A stretch of 64,000 nt of DNA from Helicobacteraceae bacterium (GTDB lineage Bacteria > Campylobacterota > Campylobacteria > Campylobacterales > Sulfurimonadaceae), in the NCBI GenBank assembly GCA_013138865.1, contig WTBY01000024.1, forward strand, positions 1 to 64,000, read 5' to 3'. The position numbers and the translations under genes were made by a program. Positions within the stretch are counted from its first letter, which is position 1. Each line of letters begins with the position of its first letter. Under the pieces are notes generated by a model. The model saw nothing but the letters and a program-made list of their open reading frames with translations, was not told where the DNA came from and searched no databases. Positions 17,430-30,400 of the stretch are shown piece after piece.

Positions 17430-19427
17430 CTAGTGTGCTACCATAGCAATATAATAACAACGCATACAACGCTCTGACTCTGCGATTGCTTGCTCTTGTG
17501 TAAACCCAAAGTTTACCTCTTTGTTATTTGTTTTTCTCTCTTCAACGCCTAAAACTTCACTTTTTTGACGCTCAACACCTTTCATCCAACCAGTAACAGT
17601 CTCTTTCTTATCATAAACACGCATTTTGCGTAAGTGATCTTCCATGATTTCATCATCAGTTAGCGAAAGTTTTCCATCTTGTACATAACGCGATATAACA
17701 GAAGCACCACGTTTTGCTTGACCAACTGCGTTAACAATTGTCATAGGACCATATTCACAATCTCCTGATGCAAAAATACCATCACGAGAAGTTACATAGT
17801 GTTTACCATCAGTTTTGATAGTTCCCCATGAAGTCATATCCAACTCCCACTCTTCTGGTAAGTGTGAAAGTTCAGCTGATTGAGAAACTGCTGGAATTAA
17901 GAAGTCAACATCTATTTCAAATGAAGCACCCTCAATTTTAACCAATTGCGCACGTCCACCATCTGGGTCTGGAACTAATTCAAACTTATCAATGATAAGT
18001 GATTTAAGAACATCCTTCTCATCTTTCATCTCATTTACAGCAGAGTGAAAAATAAATTCAACACCCTCTTCTACTGCTTCGTGATACTCTTCATAAGTAG
18101 TATTTCTAATGATTGTTTTTTCATCACGACGATAGATCATAATAACTTTTTTTGCATTTGCTCTAATTGAACAACGAACAACATCCATAGAAGTAAATCC
18201 ACCACCAACGCAAACTATAGTTTTACCTGTAAGATCAACTGATTCGCCTATTCCATACTTGTCAAAAAGGTTAACTTGGTCAAGCATCTCAATAGCTCCC
18301 CAGTAACCCTCTATTTCAGGACGCTCATTGGCACAACGTACTTTTTTAGAAAGTCTTGTTCCAGATGCGATCATAGTTGCATCATAATCAGTTTCAAATT
18401 GGCGCATCATGTCTGCACTAACTTTTGTGTTCATTATGAAATTAACACCCAAGTCTCTTACTGATTCTATATCTTGGTTATATTTATCAATAGGCATACG
18501 ATATTCAGGTACACCAACTGCTACTTCACCACCAAGAACTGGTAACTCTTCATAAACATCACACTCAATACCATCTAGTGCTAAGTAATAAGCAGTAGTA
18601 AGTCCAGCAGGACCCCCGCCAATAATAGCTACTTTTTTACCAGTTGGTTTTTTCTGCTTATGTGGATGAAAGAAACCTAAGCCATGGTCAGTCTCATAAT
18701 CAGCACCTACACGTTTTAGCTCCATAATAGATATAGGAGAGTCTAAGTTAGTTCTTCTACACTCATCTTCACATGGATGTGGACAAACACGACCACAAAC
18801 GTGAGCAAGTGGCATAGTCTGACGAGTTGCAGCAAGAGACTCATCAAGCTTAAGATCTCTTACGCCTTCTATATATGCTGGAATATCAACATGAGCAGGA
18901 CAAGCATCTGTACAAGGTGCTGTTATCTTCGCTGTATATGTTGTATCTTCTGAAGTGTAGTGTTTTGATTGTTGTTGTTTGTTAATACACTCTAAAAAAT
19001 CTGCTTCAAAATGTTCTATTAAGTCTATTATAGGAGTAGGAACAGTTTTTCCTATCTCACATTTAGAAGTTAGAGACATACTTTTTGCGATCTCTTTAAT
19101 ATGATCCAAATCAGACATAGCACCTTCACCACGTGCAATTTTATCTAGCATGTCGTAAAGTATTCTACCACCCCATCTACCAGGAGCACAACGCCCACAA
19201 GCTTCTGAGTAAATTTGGTACTGCGCTGCATATTCTGAAGCAAGACGTATAACATCTACATCTGCATCAAATAGTGCAACACCATCCCAACCTATAAATG
19301 CTTTAGAGTCACTCTGTGCATTATAAGTCTCTGGTAGTTTATATGCTGATTCTTCCCACTGATCGCTTGCTTTATCGATATTGTTTATCGATTCACCGCG
19401 CCATGTTGAGAAATAAACCTTTGCCAT
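17430..19427 (-). CDS. NuoF-position flavoprotein: N3-like domain fused to GltD-like FAD/NAD(P) oxidoreductase
   Basis: This 665-residue protein stands where nuoF should be. Residues 70-145 resemble the C-terminal N3-cluster domain of NuoF: C77GRC80 and C123EIG are kept, but the usual third cysteine is Gly83. Next come cysteine motifs of the glutamate-synthase small-subunit ferredoxin domain (CTDACP, CGRVCPHPCEDEC), an FAD Rossmann motif (GGGPAGL), a second nucleotide-binding motif (GGGFTSMD), and a C-terminal RCMRCYY. It probably feeds electrons into complex I from a donor other than NADH; in Campylobacter, flavodoxin serves the equivalent subunits. The exact donor here is unknown. Confidence 0.85.
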   Translation of the reverse strand: MAKVYFSTWRGESINNIDKASDQWEESAYKLPETYNAQSDSKAFIGWDGVALFDADVDVIRLASEYAAQYQIYSEACGRCAPGRWGGRILYDMLDKIARGEGAMSDLDHIKEIAKSMSLTSKCEIGKTVPTPIIDLIEHFEADFLECINKQQQSKHYTSEDTTYTAKITAPCTDACPAHVDIPAYIEGVRDLKLDESLAATRQTMPLAHVCGRVCPHPCEDECRRTNLDSPISIMELKRVGADYETDHGLGFFHPHKQKKPTGKKVAIIGGGPAGLTTAYYLALDGIECDVYEELPVLGGEVAVGVPEYRMPIDKYNQDIESVRDLGVNFIMNTKVSADMMRQFETDYDATMIASGTRLSKKVRCANERPEIEGYWGAIEMLDQVNLFDKYGIGESVDLTGKTIVCVGGGFTSMDVVRCSIRANAKKVIMIYRRDEKTIIRNTTYEEYHEAVEEGVEFIFHSAVNEMKDEKDVLKSLIIDKFELVPDPDGGRAQLVKIEGASFEIDVDFLIPAVSQSAELSHLPEEWELDMTSWGTIKTDGKHYVTSRDGIFASGDCEYGPMTIVNAVGQAKRGASVISRYVQDGKLSLTDDEIMEDHLRKMRVYDKKETVTGWMKGVERQKSEVLGVEERKTNNKEVNFGFTQEQAIAESERCMRCYYIAMVAH

Positions 19428-19436
19428 CTCTAACCT

Positions 19437-19661
19437 CTATTTTTTAACAACGATAGTCCAGTCAACTTCGTTGAATTTCACTGAGTTCATTAACTCACAA
19501 CCACTCTCTTTTACAAGATCAGCACTTTTTTGTATAGCTGTAAAATCACCTACTTCAAATAAAAAAATAGAGATTTCCCCAGCCTTAACTTCATCATTTA
19601 AAATTTCAATCATGCGATCGTAAAATTCATCTTTTAAATGTCTTAAATCATATCTAGTCAT
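19437..19661 (-). CDS. Small NuoE-position subunit of Campylobacterota complex I (74 aa)
   Basis: A 74-residue soluble protein between nuoD and the NuoF-like flavoprotein. It has none of the four cysteines that bind the [2Fe-2S] cluster of true NuoE. It matches in size and position the short Cj1575c-type protein that replaces NuoE in this phylum. Likely an adaptor or docking subunit for the unusual electron-input module. Confidence 0.75.
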   Translation of the reverse strand: MTRYDLRHLKDEFYDRMIEILNDEVKAGEISIFLFEVGDFTAIQKSADLVKESGCELMNSVKFNEVDWTIVVKK

Positions 19662-19669
19662 GCTATCCC

Positions 19670-20896
19670 CTATCTATCTATTTCGCCGAATACGATATTT
19701 GTTGTACCAATAATAGAAACAACATCTGGAATATAGTGACCAGGTAATAGGTCAGTTAAAATTCCTGTATGCCAAAAAGATGGCGCACGCATTTTCAGTT
19801 TGTAAGGGTAAGGTCCACCTTGAGAGTTAATGTAAAAACCTAGTTCACCTTTTGGTGATTCCGTTGGAACATAAACTTCACCAACTGGTGGTCTCATACC
19901 TTGAGTTACAAGAACAAAGTGTTGTTGTAGTGAGTAGTTTTGAGTCATCATCTCTATTTTAGATGGTGAAATAAACTTAGGTGCATGAGCCATTAACTCA
20001 GGTGATGTACCTGCATACATATCTATTACTTGGTAAAGAATACGAGCACTCTGTCTCATCTCTTCCATGTAAAGTTTATATCTAGCGTAGTTGTCACCTT
20101 TATCAGAAAAAGGAACATCAAAATCAACTTCATCATAAAGCTCATATGGTTCCTCTTTACGAATATCCCAGTTAACACCACTAGCTCTAAGCATTGGCCC
20201 TGAACAACCCCAGTCAAGTGCCATCTCTTTAGAGATAGTACCAACATTTTCCATTCTCATTTTCCAGATACGATTTTGATCAAGAAGATCTTCGTAATCT
20301 TTAATATTTTCAGGAAGTTTGTCTAGAAATTTTCTTAGATCAGTTAAAAAGTTATCTGGAAGATCAAGTGGAACACCACCTATTCTAACAGCTGAGTGAG
20401 TAAGTCTAGCACCACAATAGTCTTCAACTAAGTCCATTAAGTACTCACGTTCTCTAAAAGCGTAAAGGAAAACTGTCATAGCACCAATATCAAGTGCTGT
20501 TGTAGCTAACCAGAAAAGGTGAGACATAAGACGATTAGTCTCAAGTAGTAACATTCTAATTACTTTAGCACGACGAGGCACTTCTACATTTATAAGTTTC
20601 TCAACAGCAAGTGCAAAACCATAGTTGTTTGAGCTAGCTGCAATGTAGTCCATACGATCTGTAGTTGGTAAAAACTCATTATAGATCATATTTTCAGCCA
20701 TCTTCTCCATACCACGGTGAAGATAACCAATATCTGGATGAGATTTTACAATCTGCTCTTGTTGTAAATGTAGCATAAGGCGTAACTGACCATGTGCTGA
20801 TGGATGTTGAGGACCAAAGTTAAGAACTAACTCATTATCATCACGATCAAAAGTTATATTTTCAAAAAATGGTCTAAGTCTATTTGGTTGTTGCAT
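19670..20896 (-). CDS. nuoD: NADH-quinone oxidoreductase subunit D
   Basis: 408-residue 49-kDa-type subunit, homologous to NiFe hydrogenase large subunits, that lines the quinone site. [17 protein letters not shown] at the N-terminus includes the His and loop next to quinone. [10 protein letters not shown], and the C-terminal [12 protein letters not shown] ending, are typical. NuoC and NuoD are separate proteins here. It follows nuoC by 8 nt. Confidence 0.97.
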
Positions 20897-20904
20897 AAAT
20901 ATCC

Positions 20905-21711
20905 TTATCTATCTCTGTCAGTAATAGTTACTGACTCAGAGCTATCTAATTTTTTAATCATAAAGACGCCTTCGTCTTCTTGGTACTTAATAGGTGTTTC
21001 AGCTTGATTCTCATCAAATTTAGCTCCAAAATCAACTTCATGTCCTAAACGTGCAAAACGTTCAGTATCATAACGATCAACTCTAGCTGCATCACGAATT
21101 TCTGGTCCGATCACACTTCTAGCTTCTTTACCATAAATTTTATCTACTTCATACCACTGTGCAAACTCATCACCATGTAGAGGGTAAGTTTTTAAAAGTG
21201 GATGACCTTCCCAATCATCTGGCATTAAAATACGTTTCATAAATGGATGACCTTTAACGATCACACCGTACATGTCATACATTTCACGCTCAGCCCAATC
21301 AGCTGATCTGTAAACATCACTTACACTCTGTATAGCTTCATCTTGTTTAATGAAAAACTTAATACGAAGACGTTTACGTTTATTCATAGAAAGCATTTGA
21401 TAAAAAACTTCAAAACCACCACGAGCAGCTATAAAGTCTATCGCTGAACACTCTGAAAGTTGGTTATACTCTAACTCATCTTTTAAAAGTGTCATAACTG
21501 CGTGAATATTTTTAGGGTTAATATAAACAACCATCTGCTCTACTTGAATATAAGCTTCGCTTACTTTGAACTTAGCTTTTATAGCTTTAAGATCAGCTGC
21601 AAAAACATCATCTGTTTCTACATCAAATTTAGGAACTTGAGGCGCTACATAATAACGATCTGTATAGTACGATTTTTTCTGTACATCATCTTTAGGTGTA
21701 TAGGCTCTCAT
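20905..21711 (-). CDS. nuoC: NADH-quinone oxidoreductase subunit C
   Basis: 268-residue 30-kDa-type subunit. The family signature is present as [15 protein letters not shown] followed by [19 protein letters not shown]. It has an extra N-terminal segment of about 50 residues and a C-terminal extension, typical of Campylobacterota NuoC. It overlaps nuoB by one base. Confidence 0.96.
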
Positions 21712-22220
21712 TACATTAACCTTTTTGGTTTAAGAGAACGGTTAGCTTTCTCTTTACGAATACGTTGTTGTAACATCATTACACCATACTGAAGTGTTTC
21801 AGGACGAGGAGCACAACCAGGTAAATAAAGATCAACAGGAATAACACGATCAACACCTTGAACAGTTGCATAAGTGTTAAACATACCACCAGTATTTGCA
21901 CACGATCCCATACTGATAACCCATCTAGGTTCAGCCATTTGATCGTAAAGACGCTTAATAAACTCAGCATGTTTCTTAGTAAGAGTTCCAGCTACGATCA
22001 TAAGTTCAGACTGACGAGGAGAAGCGCGAAAAATCGTACCAAATCTGTCAAAGTCATAACGAGAAGCACCTGATGCCATCATCTCAATTCCACAACAAGC
22101 AAGACCATAAGTCAGTGCCCATAGTGAGTTAGAACGTCCCCAGTTTACTACATTATCAATAGTAGTAAGAGCTACTGGTAATCCACCATCTTTAGTGAAA
22201 TCTATTTTATGTTGTGCCAT
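21711..22220 (-). CDS. nuoB: NADH-quinone oxidoreductase subunit B
   Basis: 169-residue subunit carrying the terminal cluster N2. The tandem cysteines are in [10 protein letters not shown], with the third and fourth ligands in [10 protein letters not shown] and [10 protein letters not shown]. It overlaps the end of nuoA by 19 bases and nuoC by one base. Confidence 0.97.
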
Positions 22221-22591
22221 TCAAGCGCTCCTTTTTTCCATGCGTAAACGAAACCGATCGCAAGAAGTAAAATAAACATTAACATCTCTACAAAACCAAA
22301 CCAACCAAGTAGTTTAAAGTTTATAGCCCATGGAAACATAAATACAATTTCTACATCAAATAGTAAAAAAAGCAATGCAAACAGATAAAACTGCGTAGAG
22401 ATACGGTTAGGTTGTTTAGTAACCTCTGGTCCACACTCATAGATAGAGAGTTTAATTTTCTCAGTATCTTTAGCTGCTAGCGCGCGAGACGCTAAACGTG
22501 CAAGTATTGTTGTTGCATAAAATGCACCAAACGTGATCACAAATAGTAAAAAGACCCCAAAATAAGGGTTTGCTACATCATAATGTTCCAT
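22202..22591 (-). CDS. nuoA: NADH-quinone oxidoreductase subunit A
   Basis: About 129 residues with three membrane helices; the conserved loop YECGPE between helices 1 and 2 is visible. An ATG exists at 22612, but an AAAAGG ribosome-binding site lies just inside that extension and points to the ATG at 22591 ([12 protein letters not shown]), which also matches the usual NuoA N-terminus. It is the first gene of the nuo-pflA operon. Confidence 0.95.
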
Positions 22592-22645
22592 TATCAACCT
22601 TTTTAAAAGCATACCTATAGCTTTTATATAAGAATAGTTACTAGC

Positions 22646-22651
22646 ACTATA
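22646..22651 (-). promoter_or_regulatory. Candidate -10 box for the nuo operon
   Basis: On the minus strand TATAGT lies about 55 nt before the nuoA ATG, with T-rich sequence upstream and no recognisable -35, as usual for vegetative promoters in this phylum. It is the best -10 match in the gap before nuoA. Confidence 0.3.
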
Positions 22652-22772
22652 ACAAAAATTGGATTAAATTAAATTATAATCATACGGGGTATACGGAGGG
22701 GGTGTAACTTTATGAAACAGAAGAGTTAATGAGGCTTCTAGAGTGTAACTTTTAGGAACATGTAAAAGAAAT

Positions 22773-23183
22773 TTATTCTCTGCTCCAATGGAGTTTTTTA
22801 CCAAAACCTAATGTATTATCAGTAAATTTAAAACTATCTACTCTAATTTTCCATAGAGTTGGACTTAAAGCGATCGCATAGGGGAACGCTTTATAGTATG
22901 CTTTTTGTTCTTCGTTTTGGCATGAAGCTAGTACTACACCTTTAAACTGAACACCTTGAATTTTACCTACTATGTTAGTCTCTAATACAACTGTTCCTGA
23001 AACATTAAAGTTACGTAAAATATTTTTTATATGTTCAGTTTTGTAATCACTTGCAACTATAAAACTTTGTAACTCTTCTATGTAGACAAAAAATAGGTTA
23101 CAACAGGCACTTGTTTTGTCTTCACACTGTGTACTAAGAGTTAGTACATGGTGCTTTTTTAAGAAGTTACAGATCTGCTTCAT
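22773..23183 (-). CDS. YhbP/UPF0306-like flavin-binding-fold protein
   Basis: A protein of about 136 residues similar to E. coli YhbP, a member of the pyridoxamine-phosphate-oxidase-like split-barrel superfamily. The match covers the whole length, including KIQGVQFKGVV and the C-terminal FTDNTLGFGKKLHW. Biochemical role is not established for the family. The ATG at 23183 is preferred because it aligns with the E. coli start; an upstream in-frame ATG at 23207 would add 8 residues. Its start overlaps the end of the 95-aa gene, so it is probably the last gene of the ovoA-like operon. Confidence 0.75.
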   Translation of the reverse strand: MKQICNFLKKHHVLTLSTQCEDKTSACCNLFFVYIEELQSFIVASDYKTEHIKNILRNFNVSGTVVLETNIVGKIQGVQFKGVVLASCQNEEQKAYYKAFPYAIALSPTLWKIRVDSFKFTDNTLGFGKKLHWSRE

Positions 23184-23454
23184 ATGAGCTAAAGAGGTGT
23201 TTTTCATTTATGTCTATCATGTATTTTTCTAAATTATCGCTACTATGCAAGTCACGTTTGTTCAACATTAGGACGCCTGTTTCATCACTCTCTATCATGT
23301 CATAATAGTCATCTATTGTATTAGGTTTATAAAATACCTCTAAAAAGTGTAGTAAAAACTGAAAGTTATCTAAGCCAGTTGGTGCTTTTTTACTGTGTTT
23401 ATACTCTTTAAAAAGATCCCAACTTATCTTTTCTAATAACGCTATTTCTCTCAT
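23167..23454 (-). CDS. Conserved-looking small protein of unknown function (95 aa)
   Basis: I do not recognise this family. The product is a mixed, mostly helical soluble protein with an aromatic-rich centre (FQFLLHFLEVFYKPN). It begins inside the last 47 nt of the aminotransferase gene and ends inside the start of the YhbP-like gene. This nested arrangement implies translational coupling. Amino-acid composition looks like a real protein rather than a shadow frame. Confidence 0.55.
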   Translation of the reverse strand: MREIALLEKISWDLFKEYKHSKKAPTGLDNFQFLLHFLEVFYKPNTIDDYYDMIESDETGVLMLNKRDLHSSDNLEKYMIDINEKHLFSSYEADL

Positions 23455-24607
23455 TTAGTGCCTTTACGAGCTGTTCTATTACTTGATCTAAAAGTTTAGA
23501 ACTTACTGCGAAATTTAAACGCATGTAACCACTACCTTCTCTTCCAAAAGAGATACCAGCAGAGAGTCCTAATTTAGCCTCTTTTACAAAGAATGAACGC
23601 AACTCTTTATCTTTTAAATTCATCTTCTTGCAATTTAATAGAGCAAGATACGTACCTTCTGGAGAATTAAATGAAATTTGATCTTTAAAAGGCTCTAAGG
23701 CTTTTTGTAATTTTTCAATTTTTTTACCTAAATGAGTCATTAACTCCTCTAAATAAGGTTGTCCATTACTGTAAGCCTCTTCAAAAGCAATGTGTGCAAA
23801 AGTATTCCCTTGTGCAAAATGGATCGATTCATAAACTCTCTCAAAATCTTCTCTCATTTTCTCATTTGCGATCGCAATAGTTGAGATCGCCATTCCTGCT
23901 AAGTTAAATGTTTTGCCAACACCATAGGTTGTGATAGTTATATTTTCTACCTCTTTTGAGAGTGATGCAAAAGGTATATGTTTATTAGGTTTATAAATAA
24001 GATCAGAGTGAATTTCATCTGCTAAAACTTTTATGTTGTTTTCTAAACATATTTGAGCTAACTCCTCTAACTCCTCTCTTTTCCAAACACGTCCAACAGG
24101 ATTGTGAGGTGAGCATAGAAGTAAAAGTTTAGTCTTGCTTGTTATTTTAGATCGTAAATCATCAAAGTCAAAAGTAAAATTGCCATCAACGATCTTTAGA
24201 GGGTTCTTTAAAACTTTGCGATCGTTATTAGTAACACTGTGAAAAAAAGGCGGATAGACAGGTGTTTGAACTATAACTTCATCGCCAACGTTGCTAAAAG
24301 CTTTTATAGCTAAGTTTATAGAAGCAACAACAGAGTGGGAGTAGTACAACCACTCTTTTTTCATAGCAAAACCATGACGTGATCGTACCCACTCGATCTG
24401 AGCTTCATAAGCGGAGTTAGGGATCTCTTCATAACCTAAAATTTTATGTTCACATCTTTTTTTTATAGCTTCAAAAATAAACTCAGGAGTTCGAAGATCC
24501 ATATCTGCAACCCAAAGTGGGATCACATCAGATGTTCCAAAAAGTTCTTCTCTTAAAGTATATTTTTCTGCATTTGTTTGACTACGGTCTATGAAATTAT
24601 CTATCAT
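23408..24607 (-). CDS. MalY/PatB-type PLP-dependent C-S lyase/aminotransferase (candidate OvoB function)
   Basis: 399-residue fold-type I PLP enzyme. SPHNPVGRVW, ADEIHSDL and the PLP-lysine region TYGVGKTFNLAGM define the MalY/PatB cystathionine beta-lyase-like family. Directly upstream and abutting is an OvoA-like 5-histidylcysteine sulfoxide synthase, whose product needs a PLP-dependent C-S lyase to release 5-thiohistidine. Assigning it as that lyase (OvoB) is inference from context; beta-cystathionase or general cysteine-S-conjugate lyase activity is the alternative. Confidence 0.85.
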   Translation of the reverse strand: MIDNFIDRSQTNAEKYTLREELFGTSDVIPLWVADMDLRTPEFIFEAIKKRCEHKILGYEEIPNSAYEAQIEWVRSRHGFAMKKEWLYYSHSVVASINLAIKAFSNVGDEVIVQTPVYPPFFHSVTNNDRKVLKNPLKIVDGNFTFDFDDLRSKITSKTKLLLLCSPHNPVGRVWKREELEELAQICLENNIKVLADEIHSDLIYKPNKHIPFASLSKEVENITITTYGVGKTFNLAGMAISTIAIANEKMREDFERVYESIHFAQGNTFAHIAFEEAYSNGQPYLEELMTHLGKKIEKLQKALEPFKDQISFNSPEGTYLALLNCKKMNLKDKELRSFFVKEAKLGLSAGISFGREGSGYMRLNFAVSSKLLDQVIEQLVKALNERNSVIRKDKLGSF

Positions 24608-25957
24608 CTATTTTTCAACTTCAACATATCTAAAACCTGCATGTTGCACGAAGTGTCGTCTAAAAGCATAACGAGAGTATCGTAGCATCTCATTTCCAGT
24701 GCTAATAAAAGAACCCCCAAAAATAATAGCATGCTTATCATCAAAAGTTGGTGTTGAGAAATCATCATAAATTTTATGAGTTTTAAAACCCTCAAAGGAG
24801 TAAAAAGAGGTTGAACTATGTTGCCATACATTTCCTATAACGTCTGCAATATCATCAAACATAAACTCATCTACACTAGAGCTTGAGTAGTAGTGCGCTA
24901 TATTTATATTTGCTTTTGTATCATCTGGAAGATCACTTAAACCTGCGCGATCATATAATCGCATATATTGAGCTTCACTTGGAAGAGCAAAGTTTTTACG
25001 ATCTTTTTTACTCTTATAAACTAAAAATGCTTGTGCTTCTAGGTTACTAAGCTCTACTGGAAACGAGAGAGGTAACTCAACTTCTTGATCTAATACTCTA
25101 AGTTTAAACTCTCCACTGCTCTGCTTAATCCAAAAAGGTGGATGAGTTGCTTTTGTTATAGATAAAAACTTCTTTCCTTCTTCACACCAATACTCCTCTT
25201 TTTTATAACCATCTTCTTTTACAAACTCCATATATTCAGCATTACTTACTAAATATTTTGAGACTTTAAAACTATCAACATTAACTTCAACTTCTGCGTA
25301 CTCATTATCCCAACCATAAAAGTCAAGATCATCTGACTTACCTAAAACTGTAGTCGCACTACTAACAGTAACTAAAGAGTTTTGCACAACTTTGTTCACT
25401 TTTATACATACATTAAACTCTTCGATCTTATTTACAAATTCAAGAGGTAGCTCTCTATGCAAAACACTCGAAGTCTCTATATGAATTCGCTCATGCTCAA
25501 TTGCCATCAAAATAGCCCACATAGGTTGTTCCCATGTAATCGGCAAGCTCATAGGCATGGTTTCTATAAGTTCAAGAACGATCTCTTTCACTTTAGCTCT
25601 GTATTCTTTTACTTCATTAACACTTATGTGAGAGTAGCGACTGCGGTTAAGATCATCCCAGTTCATCTCATCTACACCAACTCCAAATGACTCCTCAAAA
25701 GAATAATTTACTCTCTCTTTAATAGCGCCTACTAAAATAAGTTTATTAATAAAAAAGACCGCACTATGTGCAAAATAAAATAGTGCACTATGACGAGTGG
25801 GTTCTATAACTCTATAAAAAACTGAGTCATCTTTAAGCATATCAAAAAGTCTTTCATAAAGTGAGCATGAGTTATTAAAGTATTCCTTTATTTCAAGTCG
25901 CTTTTCTTCTAAAGTGTTTGCATTTAGTCTAAGTGGTTGAGAGTGAAAGTTATTCAT
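24608..25957 (-). CDS. ovoA: 5-histidylcysteine sulfoxide synthase (OvoA N-terminal type, no methyltransferase domain)
   Basis: A non-haem iron enzyme that joins cysteine to histidine with oxygen. The N-terminal DinB-like domain supplies the three-His iron site: His64 in the HSALFYFAH segment, then H155-x3-H159-x-E161 in MAIEHERIHIE. The C-terminal half is an FGE/sulfatase-modifying-factor domain (FGGSFISTGNEMLRYSRYAFRR...HAGFRYVE). Classical OvoA is about 700 residues with a C-terminal SAM methyltransferase; this one ends at 449, so it would make the sulfoxide but not methylate it. AAGG lies 6-7 nt before the ATG. EgtB is the main alternative, but similarity and the adjacent lyase favour OvoA. 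Confidence 0.85.
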   Translation of the reverse strand: MNNFHSQPLRLNANTLEEKRLEIKEYFNNSCSLYERLFDMLKDDSVFYRVIEPTRHSALFYFAHSAVFFINKLILVGAIKERVNYSFEESFGVGVDEMNWDDLNRSRYSHISVNEVKEYRAKVKEIVLELIETMPMSLPITWEQPMWAILMAIEHERIHIETSSVLHRELPLEFVNKIEEFNVCIKVNKVVQNSLVTVSSATTVLGKSDDLDFYGWDNEYAEVEVNVDSFKVSKYLVSNAEYMEFVKEDGYKKEEYWCEEGKKFLSITKATHPPFWIKQSSGEFKLRVLDQEVELPLSFPVELSNLEAQAFLVYKSKKDRKNFALPSEAQYMRLYDRAGLSDLPDDTKANINIAHYYSSSSVDEFMFDDIADVIGNVWQHSSTSFYSFEGFKTHKIYDDFSTPTFDDKHAIIFGGSFISTGNEMLRYSRYAFRRHFVQHAGFRYVEVEK

Positions 25958-25986
25958 ATTTAACCTTTTTTTGCTACTATGGTTTT

Positions 25987-26661
25987 ATGAAAAATATAAT
26001 ATCGTTTTTTAGCTCAAAAGAAGATGGCAACTTAGCTTTTCATGTTAATGATGATAAAAATAGTGTTATATGTAACCATAAAATGTTAGCTTTAAAACTA
26101 GGTTATGATCATGCTAAACTTGTTCATATGAAACAAGTTCACTCAAACAGAGTTGTTGTAGTAGATAATAGTTTTAACTTTAACACACCGCCTATTTGTG
26201 ATGCACTTATAACTAATAAAAAAAATTTACCACTTATGGTCATGGTTGCTGATTGTACTCCTATTTTACTATACGATCGTAAAAAGTCAGCGATAGCGGT
26301 TGTTCATGCAGGACGAGAAGGTGCTTTTAAAAATATTTTAAAAGAAACTATTTTTAAAATGAAAAATGAGTTTAACACAGACTCTAATGATCTAGAAGTA
26401 GTGTTAGGTCCTTCTATTAAAAAGTGCTGTTATGAGATAGGCTCTAAAATGGCAAAAGAGAATTCAGAGTTTGAGTATGCGATCGATGAGATGTACTATT
26501 TACATATTGATAAAATACTCTTAAAACAGCTAAATGAGTTGGGTGTTGAAAATATTAAAATCTCAAACAGCTGCAGCTGTTGTGAGAGTAAAACTCTCTA
26601 CTCGTACAGAGCAGAGGGAGTTAAAGCTGGACGTATGGCAGGGGTTATAATGTTGAAGTAA
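25987..26661 (+). CDS. pgeF: Peptidoglycan editing factor PgeF / YfiH family (laccase domain)
   Basis: About 224 residues. Members of this family remove wrongly incorporated residues from muropeptide precursors and were earlier called polyphenol oxidases. The conserved metal-site pattern is visible: KQVHSN, VADCTPILLYD, VVHAGREG and the C-terminal SCSCCESKTLYSYRAEG. The frame opens earlier, but the ATG at 25987 gives the normal N-terminus and leaves a 29-nt divergent gap to ovoA. It converges on dxs with a 17-nt overlap of the ends. Confidence 0.9.
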   Translation: MKNIISFFSSKEDGNLAFHVNDDKNSVICNHKMLALKLGYDHAKLVHMKQVHSNRVVVVDNSFNFNTPPICDALITNKKNLPLMVMVADCTPILLYDRKKSAIAVVHAGREGAFKNILKETIFKMKNEFNTDSNDLEVVLGPSIKKCCYEIGSKMAKENSEFEYAIDEMYYLHIDKILLKQLNELGVENIKISNSCSCCESKTLYSYRAEGVKAGRMAGVIMLK

Positions 26662-28465
26662 CTCTAGTAGCTAACTGTTCAGGCAATAGCTGTAAAGACT
26701 CTTCAACTAAAGCTGTTTTTCCATGAGTTATAAACTCATCTTCATACTCAAAAGAGACTACTTTTATATCTTGAATGCCTTCATTTGCTAAGAACTCTAA
26801 AATAGCACTTGCTACTCCTCCCATTTTTGAACTATCTGAAAATATAAACCACTTTTTATGCTTTGTTGCTAAGTTTTTTAACATATCTGCATCTAATGGT
26901 TTAACAAAGCGTAGATCAAGAAGAGAAGTTTTTTCATCTAGCAGATCCATTGTAGCTTTTGCACGTCCAACACCATTTCCATAACCTATGAAAAGAGTGT
27001 CACTACTATTTGAAATGAGTAACTGTGATCTTCCATAAACAAATGGTGCTGATTCTGGAAGCTCAACATCAAAGAAACTTCCTCTTGGGTAACGAATAGC
27101 TAAAGGGTGATCAAAACAATGTGCAAAACCCATTAGTTGATGAAATGATTTTTCACACTTAGGAGCTGCTAGGTTCATATTTGGTATAAGTCTTAGGTAA
27201 CTTATGTCAAAAACACCTTGATGTGTTTCTCCGTCTTCTCCGACTATTCCACCACGATCTAGTGCAAAAACAACTCCTAAGTCCATTAAACAGACATCAT
27301 GTACAACTTGATCAAAAGCACGTTGTAAAAATGTTGAGTAAATTGTACAAAAAGGTTTAAAACCCTCTTTTGCTAAAGCAGCCATTGATGTAACTGCATG
27401 TTGTTCTGCAATCGCAACATCCCAAAAACGTTCAGGATATTTTTCTAGTAGTGGAGTTAGTCCTGTTCCAGTAGGCATGGCAGCAGTTACTCCAACTATT
27501 TTTTCATCTTTATCAGCTAGGTGAAGTAATGCTTCTGAATAGATCTGTGTTGCACTTTTTGAGCCACTTGAGCTATTTCCTTTTCCACTTTTAAGATCAA
27601 AAGGTCCAACACCATGCCACTTTTCATGTTTGCCCTCAGCGATCTGATAACCTTTACCTTTAGTAGTTTGTGTGTGAATAATTACAGGTTTATTCATACT
27701 TTTTGCTAACTCTAACGTGTCTACTAAAGACTTGATATTATGACCATCAATAGGACCAATATACTCAACACCCATCTCTTCAAAAAGAATTCCTGGAGTT
27801 ATAAGTTTAAAAGCCTCTTCAAAACGTTTTGCTAAGTAGTTTGCACTATCACCAAAGTTATTTACAACACTCTCAGTTTTCTTTTTAAATTTTTGATAAA
27901 AAGGAGAAGCCATAGCTGAACTTAATATTCGACTTATAGCTCCGATCGGAGCCGCAATACTCATCTCATTATCATTTAAAATAATAATCATAGGGTATTT
28001 ACGATCACCTAATTCATTTAGCGCTTCATAAACCATTCCAGAAGTCATACTACCATCGCCTATTAAGACAACAGGAACACGTGTCTCATTTTCACCTTTA
28101 AGTGCAATTGCTTTTGCAGCACCTACACCTAAAGAGATCGAAGTTGAGCTATGACCTGCTACAAAATAATCACTCTGGCTATCATTAGGTTTTGTATAAC
28201 CTGACGTTCCATTAAACTGGCGAAGAGTATCAAAATCATCCCATCTATCAGTAAGTAATTTATGTGCATACGCTTGATGTGAAACATCAAAAATAAAAGG
28301 ATTCTCACTTGAATCAAATACTTTGTGCATAGCAACTATGACTTCTGTAGCACCCAAAGAAGAGCTTAAATGCCCTCCATTAGCGCTTACAACTTCAAGT
28401 ATACGATCACGTATATCTTTAGTAATTATCTCTAACTCTTCTATATTTTTATTTTGTATATTCAT
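26645..28465 (-). CDS. dxs: 1-deoxy-D-xylulose-5-phosphate synthase
   Basis: First enzyme of the MEP isoprenoid pathway and source of DXP for thiamine and pyridoxal. The thiamine-diphosphate motif GDGSMTSGM...NDN, the HQAYAHKLLTDR region and GPIDGHN are present. Two starts are possible: GTG at 28474, inside the fliH stop region, or ATG at 28465, one base after the fliH stop. The ATG is preferred. The gene is the last of the fliF-fliG-fliH-dxs run, the same order as in Campylobacter. Confidence 0.96.
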   Translation of the reverse strand: MNIQNKNIEELEIITKDIRDRILEVVSANGGHLSSSLGATEVIVAMHKVFDSSENPFIFDVSHQAYAHKLLTDRWDDFDTLRQFNGTSGYTKPNDSQSDYFVAGHSSTSISLGVGAAKAIALKGENETRVPVVLIGDGSMTSGMVYEALNELGDRKYPMIIILNDNEMSIAAPIGAISRILSSAMASPFYQKFKKKTESVVNNFGDSANYLAKRFEEAFKLITPGILFEEMGVEYIGPIDGHNIKSLVDTLELAKSMNKPVIIHTQTTKGKGYQIAEGKHEKWHGVGPFDLKSGKGNSSSGSKSATQIYSEALLHLADKDEKIVGVTAAMPTGTGLTPLLEKYPERFWDVAIAEQHAVTSMAALAKEGFKPFCTIYSTFLQRAFDQVVHDVCLMDLGVVFALDRGGIVGEDGETHQGVFDISYLRLIPNMNLAAPKCEKSFHQLMGFAHCFDHPLAIRYPRGSFFDVELPESAPFVYGRSQLLISNSSDTLFIGYGNGVGRAKATMDLLDEKTSLLDLRFVKPLDADMLKNLATKHKKWFIFSDSSKMGGVASAILEFLANEGIQDIKVVSFEYEDEFITHGKTALVEESLQLLPEQLATRVTSTL

Positions 28466-28466
28466 A

Positions 28467-29366
28467 TTATTCACTCAAAGCAGCTTGCTTTACTCTTTCA
28501 AATCTTTTATGTAATTCGTCATCAATATTTCCTGCGTCACTCAGAGCTACAACCCCACCGGCGGTAATTCCAGAGTCTTCACTTACAGATACATTTTTAT
28601 ATTCACTCATATTTTCACTCAGTTTTGCAAAATCATTTGGATTCACTTTTAGTGTTATTTTTGAAGCACCTTGCAACTCTTTTATAAGAGCTTCACTTAG
28701 TTTTGTAGCAACTGCCGATGAATTTTCACTTACCTCACTATTTACAACTTCATTAGCAATATCGAGCGCAGCGTGAAGTAGTTCAGCTTTAATATTCTCT
28801 AGTGATTTTTCAAAACCTTGTGCTTTTTGATCAAGTGAGACTATACTACGACCAAGTTGATCTAATCCATCACAAACAGCAGCTTCTCTCTCTTGAGCAG
28901 CTTGGTTTTTTCCATTTTTTATTCCCTTTTCAAAAGCATCACTTTTAATATCATCAAGGGCTTTTGTCTGATCACGTTGTGCATCTTCAAGTTGCATTTC
29001 AAGTTTAATCATTTTCGATGACAAATCATCATTTTGTTTTAAAAGAGACTCTACTAAATCATCACGATTGTTAGCAACAGGTAGTGGAGCTGGTTCATCA
29101 AGAGAGAGATCATCCATACTTATAGCACCGACATCTGGCTCTATAGTATTAATAACTAATGGCTGAAAACCATCACTTTCAGATGGAGTAAATGCTTGTG
29201 TAGGTTCAGCACCAATAGTTGTACCCTGATTTAATACGCCCTCAGTTAACTTTATCTCATGTTTTACATTTTTAGATGTATTCACGTCAATTGTAGCTAT
29301 AGGTTTAAACTGAAATAGTGTTATACCAGCACTCTCTTGATCATCACGACTTATAACATTTGACAT
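28467..29366 (-). CDS. fliH: Flagellar assembly protein FliH
   Basis: 299-residue regulator of the flagellar export ATPase FliI. It has a long low-complexity N-terminus (about residues 1-100), a central coiled coil (DDLSSKMIKLEMQLEDAQRDQ region with KGIKNGKNQA), and a FliH/SctL C-terminal domain (AALDIANEVV... KVNPND...). Called from this architecture and its place directly after fliG, 2 nt away. Confidence 0.9.
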   Translation of the reverse strand: MSNVISRDDQESAGITLFQFKPIATIDVNTSKNVKHEIKLTEGVLNQGTTIGAEPTQAFTPSESDGFQPLVINTIEPDVGAISMDDLSLDEPAPLPVANNRDDLVESLLKQNDDLSSKMIKLEMQLEDAQRDQTKALDDIKSDAFEKGIKNGKNQAAQEREAAVCDGLDQLGRSIVSLDQKAQGFEKSLENIKAELLHAALDIANEVVNSEVSENSSAVATKLSEALIKELQGASKITLKVNPNDFAKLSENMSEYKNVSVSEDSGITAGGVVALSDAGNIDDELHKRFERVKQAALSE

Positions 29367-29368
29367 AT

Positions 29369-30400
29369 TTAGCCGATCATCTCATCTGCTTCACCTAGTT
29401 GAACAACACCTTGTTCAGCTAGTTGTTGTACAGCATCAACCATTTTACGTTGAGCACCTTCAACATCTTTAACACGAACCGCACCCATAAATTCCATCTC
29501 TTCAGCGAAAGCGTCACGAGCACGCTCTGACATATTTCCAAAGAATTTCTCTTTAAGATCATCAGGAGAGTTTTTAAGAGCCAACATAAGATCTTTTTTA
29601 TCTGCTGTTTTTAGAATCTCTCTAATTGCATTATTATCAAGTGTTACAATATCTTCAAAAGTAAACATCATCTCTTTAATAGAGACAGCAAGCTCTTGAT
29701 CGATCTGTTCTATATGACCTAATGTAGCTTTAGCACTACCGGCACCAAGCCTATTAAAGACATCAGCAACCGCACGCGGTCCACCAACTTCAACTTTGTA
29801 AGTAGCAAGTGACTCTAGTTTAGACTCAAGAACTGCAGATACACGTTTAATAATTGCAGGTGAAATATCTCCAAGTTTTGCCATTCTCATAGCAATCTCA
29901 GCTCTCATGTCATCATTAAAGAAACTTAGTGTCTCTGCGGCTGATGTTGCATCCATATGCGCTAAAATAAGAGCAATTGTTTGTGGATGCTCGTTAACAA
30001 TAAAGTCTGCAAGTTGTTGAGGCTTGATCTTAGAAAGGTAAGCAAAATTTTGAGTATTTTGCATACTTTTTGCAAGTCTGTCCATAACCTTTTTAGCTTC
30101 TTCAGGTCCAAGTGCACGATGAAGAAGATCACGTGCATAGTCCATACCACCACTATTAATGTATTGAGATGATTGTAAGATAGCATGAAACTCTTCTAAA
30201 ATATGAAGGGCAACAGGTTTCTCAACAGCACCTGCACCAGCTATGTGTTTTGATATTTCAGTAATAGCAGACACTTCCATCATTGAAAAAAGTTCTGTAG
30301 TTTGGTCTTCACCAATTTGAAGCATTAAAAGAGCTACTTTTTGAGCCATTGACATCTCATCAACTATAATCTGCTGCATTGATGTTAACTTAACTGACAT
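29369..30400 (-). CDS. fliG: Flagellar motor switch protein FliG
   Basis: 343-residue rotor protein linking the MS ring to the C ring and facing the stator. The middle-domain EHPQT motif (NEHPQTIALILAHM) and C-terminal torque helix region MFTFEDIVTLDNNAIREIL are intact. Start is coupled to fliF by a one-base overlap. As expected in this group, three ARM-like domains fill the whole length. Confidence 0.97.
   Translation of the reverse strand: MSVKLTSMQQIIVDEMSMAQKVALLMLQIGEDQTTELFSMMEVSAITEISKHIAGAGAVEKPVALHILEEFHAILQSSQYINSGGMDYARDLLHRALGPEEAKKVMDRLAKSMQNTQNFAYLSKIKPQQLADFIVNEHPQTIALILAHMDATSAAETLSFFNDDMRAEIAMRMAKLGDISPAIIKRVSAVLESKLESLATYKVEVGGPRAVADVFNRLGAGSAKATLGHIEQIDQELAVSIKEMMFTFEDIVTLDNNAIREILKTADKKDLMLALKNSPDDLKEKFFGNMSERARDAFAEEMEFMGAVRVKDVEGAQRKMVDAVQQLAEQGVVQLGEADEMIG

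Follow-up and report, generated by a model that had tools for sequence, protein, structure and literature searches.

A putative reduced ovothiol operon lacking the OvoA methyltransferase domain in a Campylobacterota genome, with unmethylated L-5-thiohistidine as the probable end product

Gene layout of the locus

The window (the whole stretch of DNA that was analyzed, comprising 64,000 nucleotides of contig WTBY01000024.1 from a Helicobacteraceae bacterium) contains, at 22773-25957 on the minus strand, four co-directional genes that lie head to tail and abut or overlap one another. Four nested or abutting reading frames had been described here in an earlier note on this DNA, and all were present at that place and on that strand. 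The first gene, ovoA (24608-25957), encodes a 449-aa OvoA-type 5-histidylcysteine sulfoxide synthase without a C-terminal methyltransferase (MT) domain; the second, ovoB (23408-24607), encodes a 399-aa PatB/MalY-type PLP-dependent C-S lyase, a putative sulfoxide lyase. These are followed by P95 (23167-23454), encoding a 95-aa all-helical protein without cysteine, and by a yhbP-like gene (22773-23207), encoding a 144-aa protein resembling the PNPOx split barrels. The ovoB and P95 reading frames overlap by 47 nt and those of P95 and yhbP by 41 nt as annotated; comparison with homologues indicates that the true start of yhbP is probably M9, at 23183, in which case the latter overlap would be 17 nt.

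The ovoA stop and the ovoB start meet at 24607-24610 (minus strand), the site occupied in relatives by the MT domain (∼250 aa). In the sequence ...GAAAAATAG|ATGATAGAT... the ovoA stop codon, TAG, is followed at the very next base by the ATG of ovoB, while in relatives ∼250 further codons separate the synthase domain from the ovoB start. Direct reading of this junction found it to be clean, with no MT remnant. Truncation of OvoA by a frameshift or a contig edge was ruled out, since ovoB lies directly after the stop codon and the contig is 181,857 bases (182 kb) long. The same gene order is kept in many relatives, excluding a chance arrangement, and as the OvoA of these relatives is ∼700 aa in length, the window operon is the ordinary operon of the family minus the MT domain.

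A putative YfiH/PgeF-like gene (25933-26661), assigned by reading its sequence, is divergent from ovoA; a gene of this type also adjoins ovoA or the P95-yhbP pair in loci L103 and L112 and in genome G003. On the other side, yhbP is followed on the same strand by a putative nuo (NADH-quinone oxidoreductase) operon (17430-22612), in which a putative 665-aa flavin/Fe-S oxidoreductase-like protein is encoded after nuoD.

Family assignment of the encoded proteins

The window OvoA scored 577.3 bits against the OvoA N-terminal model (TIGR04344 ovoA_Nterm; cut-off, 400). Its best solved relative was the OvoA of structure 8khq (E 7.5e-136), of which only residues 12 to 455 of 728 were matched, and the window protein ends four residues past the AGFRYV-type end of the synthase domain. 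The EgtB and EgtB-IV synthases belong to the same superfamily and, like the window protein, are single-domain enzymes (303 bits against the EgtB/EgtB-IV-type structure 8vig), but the window synthase is much closer to OvoA, falling below the equivalog cut-offs of both EgtB (131 bits versus 360) and SenA (130.7 bits versus 420). EgtD was sought in the genome of the window organism and none was found, which argues against ergothioneine as the product; together with the EgtB and SenA scores, this absence ruled out a reading of the protein as an ergothioneine or selenoneine synthase.

Residues H64, H155, H159 and E161 (an HX3HXE motif and an upstream histidine), which we take from the known biochemistry of EgtB and OvoA to be the iron motif, were invariant in 99 of 99 OvoA homologues. 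Also kept are the YDDFS tyrosine and the segment SRYAFRRHF..HAGFRY. Of 82 near-invariant columns, 8 are altered in the window protein, and one of these changes is W380H in the GNVWQW motif; this motif was found in 97 of 99 OvoA domains, the other two, those of the window and G009 (L035/L096), having GNVWQH. Identity between OvoA proteins was 50.4% for pairs involving the window as opposed to 64.9% (standard deviation, 4.4) for other pairs, at OvoB identities of 58 to 66%, and hence the window OvoA evolved faster than its OvoB. Due to these residue departures and to a conservation lower than that predicted by OvoB, the enzyme may be active under altered constraints or may be altered in specificity.

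OvoB matched the PatB C-S lyase model TIGR04350 at 519 bits (cut-off, 340), contains the invariant PLP lysine (K232, in GVGKTFNLAG) and is well conserved, departing from the consensus in no more than 3 of 56 near-invariant columns. It thus has the family, the catalytic lysine and the linkage to ovoA of a PLP-dependent C-S lyase of this pathway, as ovoB follows ovoA in almost every Campylobacterota locus that extends far enough to reveal the order. PatB enzymes have a broad specificity, and the genetic tie to ovoA is what distinguishes the window protein from other PatB/MalY lyases and marks it as a putative sulfoxide lyase that would yield 5-thiohistidine. The proposal of the earlier note, that an MT-less OvoA-type synthase and an OvoB-type lyase supply the two steps to 5-thiohistidine, is supported by these family scores.

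P95 belongs to a protein family detected in 78 of the 151 genomes sampled from the taxonomic family, in most cases with its gene between ovoB and yhbP. It was located on the same strand and within 8 kb downstream of ovoA in 63 of these 78 genomes (within 2.6 kb in 50); yhbP was no more than 30 nt away in 64 of the 73 cases on the same contig and strand. In a sample of the phylum, the P95 profile gave 16 clear matches, all within the same taxonomic family, and 15 of these genomes had OvoA. Co-occurrence of P95 with ovoA, which the earlier note had put forward as a check, says little inside the family, where about 92% of genomes have OvoA; the linkage is the real evidence. The invariant residues of P95 are W12, K16, F37, Y42, D57, M63 and K66, and an AlphaFold model (pLDDT 84.3) consists of six helices. 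No credible match to P95 was found in Pfam or the PDB, and a Foldseek search with the model returned nothing better than E 2.5. A DsrC/TusE-like sulfur carrier was considered on account of a weak profile match (E 0.48) and rejected, there being no fold match and no cysteine in the window P95.

The yhbP-like gene was found in 145 of 151 genomes of the taxonomic family. Its product is related to the YhbP family (NF002900), yet scores 115.9 bits, under the NCBIfam cut-off of 176; as PF01243 (PNPOx split barrel) was matched by 31 of 34 of its homologues, a weak membership of this superfamily is suggested. A strict tie of P95 to OvoA was ruled out by G003, a 100%-complete genome with the P95-yhbP pair and no ovoA, and by G119, G085 and G086, where P95 is on a different contig. 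Two genomes that are each 99% complete (G018 and G030) keep yhbP with ovoA, ovoB and P95 missing beside it, indicating that at least YhbP has a role outside the thiohistidine pathway. In two 99%-complete genomes of a Sulfurimonas-like genus, g2 (loci L134 and L135), where ovoA, ovoB and P95 are absent, a dUTPase-like gene comes after yhbP, which in L134 directly follows dxs, the position that ovoA has in L144.

The idea that P95 and YhbP are parts of the pathway was thus borne out only as far as the proximity of P95 to ovoA in 63 of 78 genomes, and is at odds with the G003 pair and the solitary yhbP genes of G018 and G030. A function in redox recycling of the thiol, also suggested in that note, was not upheld: P95 has no cysteine, YhbP is weakly PNPOx-like and both also occur without OvoA. 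P95 and YhbP form a separate and probably co-transcribed pair that usually travels with the operon in this family.

Absence of the methyltransferase and its distribution among relatives

The genome of the window organism is 100% complete at 3.03 Mb, and a search of all of it with the OvoA-type MT model TIGR04345 gave a best score of 24.7 bits, far short of the cut-off (170); in 113 of the 151 genomes of the family, this search did detect the domain above the cut-off. The stand-alone OvoA-type MT that the earlier note had proposed seeking elsewhere in the genome was, therefore, not found. Five weak generic SAM-methyltransferase matches (19 to 25 bits) were detected, and all of the control genomes gave comparable matches below the cut-off. 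Absence of the MT family is, like the gene content, gene order and residues described above, a direct observation. As no OvoA-type MT is present in a 100%-complete genome, the domain has been lost from the window genome and not split off to another locus. This genome is the sole representative of its genus in the sample, and the loss there is seen in one genome.

In the taxonomic family, which comprises Sulfurimonas and its relatives, most members have an OvoA of ∼700 aa with a fused MT. In the phylum sample, 67 of 298 genomes had an OvoA over the cut-off and, as judged by frame length, MT-less forms were present only in G000, G013 and G028. In the 151-genome family sample, the other MT-less OvoAs were found mainly in genus g14, to which Sulfuricurvum belongs. 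The 40 classified genomes of this genus comprised 19 with a stand-alone MT elsewhere, 17 with no MT (9 of them ≥97% complete) and 4 with a shortened fused MT. Among the 17 genomes with no MT, fused or stand-alone, is that of the cultured S. kujiense DSM 16994 (G061), its plasmid being 100% identical to NC_014754.1 of that strain over the 4,000 bases compared.

A tree of synthase domains (99 rows, a quick method and a single run) did not group the window OvoA with Sulfuricurvum. The window row has a long branch (0.8) and pairs with G009 of genus g10 (support, 81), a possible companion whose OvoA runs into a contig end; the exact position of the window OvoA is uncertain. On this tree, in which the window lies apart from Sulfuricurvum, MT-less OvoAs must have arisen at least twice, once in each lineage. 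A single loss shared with Sulfuricurvum was ruled out on this basis, subject to the uncertainty that the long branch of the window brings.

The stand-alone MTs of Sulfuricurvum belong to the OvoA family (∼300 to 320 bits), and the eight examined formed a single clade (98/97) that lies within the fused MTs, next to the sequences of genus g7. This nesting suggests that, in Sulfuricurvum, loss of the MT was followed by its regain through transfer. The stand-alone gene usually adjoins an ADP-ribosylglycohydrolase (PF03747) gene (L136-L142; e.g., L138:6299-8147 and L139:5377-7218); the two are fused into one 613-aa protein in G028, and no such neighbor is present in L143 (G093). Shortened and highly divergent fused MTs of 173 to 200 aa, as opposed to ∼253 aa, were observed in L013, L021, L027, L029, L042 and L103-L108; these keep the SAM-binding core, lack the C-terminal FVIRE..RKYQ segment and may methylate another substrate. 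Several loci of the Sulfuricurvum genus (L097-L106, L109-L112, L114 and L115) have an ovoA-ovoB-yhbP order without P95 and, a few genes away, a gene resembling hisH; this proximity is possibly a link to histidine supply and may be mere synteny.

Proposed pathway, alternatives and significance

In the described pathway, OvoA forms 5-histidylcysteine sulfoxide from histidine, cysteine and O2, OvoB releases 5-thiohistidine and the C-terminal domain of OvoA performs the methylation (PMC12631010). By analogy, the window OvoA, with Fe(II) and O2, would join C5 of histidine to the sulfur of cysteine, and OvoB, with PLP, would split the resulting sulfoxide into L-5-thiohistidine, pyruvate and ammonia. 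The domain that would methylate an imidazole nitrogen to give ovothiol A appears to have been precisely lost in the window lineage, such that 5-thiohistidine would be either the end product or passed to an unlinked tailoring enzyme. Catalysis by the window operon is assigned from family membership, and its end product is inferred. Since no relative of the MT family remains in the genome, we consider it probable that this is a reduced ovothiol operon with unmethylated L-5-thiohistidine as its end product.

Ovothiol A could still be made if an unlinked methyltransferase of a different family acted on 5-thiohistidine, and the five weak matches of 19 to 25 bits, as well as the 19 Sulfuricurvum genomes in which an unlinked MT exists and function seems to have been regained at least once, are in keeping with this explanation. 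The regained enzymes are, however, OvoA-family proteins of ∼300 to 320 bits, with nothing alike in the window genome, and the weak matches are no higher than in every control genome, so that this explanation is unlikely. A change in the OvoA itself, to another acceptor or ring position or mostly to cysteine oxidation, such that 5-thiohistidine is not the product, is suggested by the long branch (0.8), by the 8 of 82 altered near-invariant residues, by GNVWQH being common only to the window and its tree partner G009 and by the faster evolution relative to OvoB; but a protein that scores 577 bits as OvoA versus 131 as EgtB, that retains the metal motif, the YDDFS tyrosine and the SRYAFRRHF..HAGFRY segment and that is accompanied by a well-conserved OvoB is quite unlikely to have changed in this manner.

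Conjugation of 5-thiohistidine by an unlinked enzyme, whether by N-acetylation as in Proteiniphilum saccharofermentans or otherwise, has a precedent in 5THNAT, an acetyltransferase of 5-thiohistidine whose gene accompanies those of some truncated OvoAs (PMC12631010). This enzyme was found by linkage, whereas no acetyltransferase was recognized beside the operon (open reading frames of ≥80 aa, window positions 17430-30400) or seen among the conserved neighbors of the Sulfuricurvum ovoA loci, and conjugation is accordingly rated as very unlikely. An assembly error, or an operon that is a decaying relic, would fit with a single genome for the genus and with an accelerated OvoA, but four intact overlapping reading frames with a perfect junction, the conserved residues of ovoB and the independent evolution of the same architecture in complete Sulfuricurvum genomes make this highly improbable.

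The reduced ovothiol operon shares a synthase domain and a PLP-dependent C-S lyase with the OvoA/OvoB pathway to ovothiol A (Erwinia tasmaniensis and Trypanosoma cruzi; 8khq) and has the gene order of its full-length Campylobacterota relatives, with synthase and lyase adjacent, but lacks the C-terminal N-methyltransferase domain and any such gene elsewhere. Truncated OvoAs whose 5-thiohistidine is N-acetylated by 5THNAT and not methylated have been described in Bacteroidota (PMC12631010); these are also MT-less, with 5-thiohistidine expected to be unmethylated, but the window belongs to another phylum and has P95 and YhbP instead of an acetyltransferase in the cluster. A passage of a review (PMC9103826), which also cites the survey of Brancaccio et al. 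2021, reports in general terms the same domain loss in some bacterial OvoA-like proteins; whole-genome absence of an OvoA-type MT, repeated loss and the split gene of Sulfuricurvum go beyond that passage. Loss of the MT domain from OvoA is, therefore, already known in kind and is not a new system. A limited literature search did not find descriptions of repeated MT loss, shortening, splitting and regain within one bacterial family, of a stand-alone MT that adjoins an ADP-ribosylglycohydrolase or is fused with it, or of the P95 family.

The window organism, a sulfur-oxidizer-like bacterium, probably makes plain 5-thiohistidine, as its cultured relative S. kujiense probably also does. A wider proposal, that unmethylated 5-thiohistidine is a working small thiol in two Campylobacterota lineages (the window genus and part of Sulfuricurvum), with methylation repeatedly lost, split and regained, and that P95 represents a new family of helical proteins devoted to thiohistidine metabolism, is conceivable but doubtful. 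A family in which the MT is fused, shortened, relocated or absent in close relatives constitutes a natural experiment on the role of ovothiol in bacteria, which also bears on why the ring nitrogen of ovothiol is methylated. Among its members is S. kujiense DSM 16994, a cultured type strain for which the prediction of 5-thiohistidine without ovothiol A is testable.
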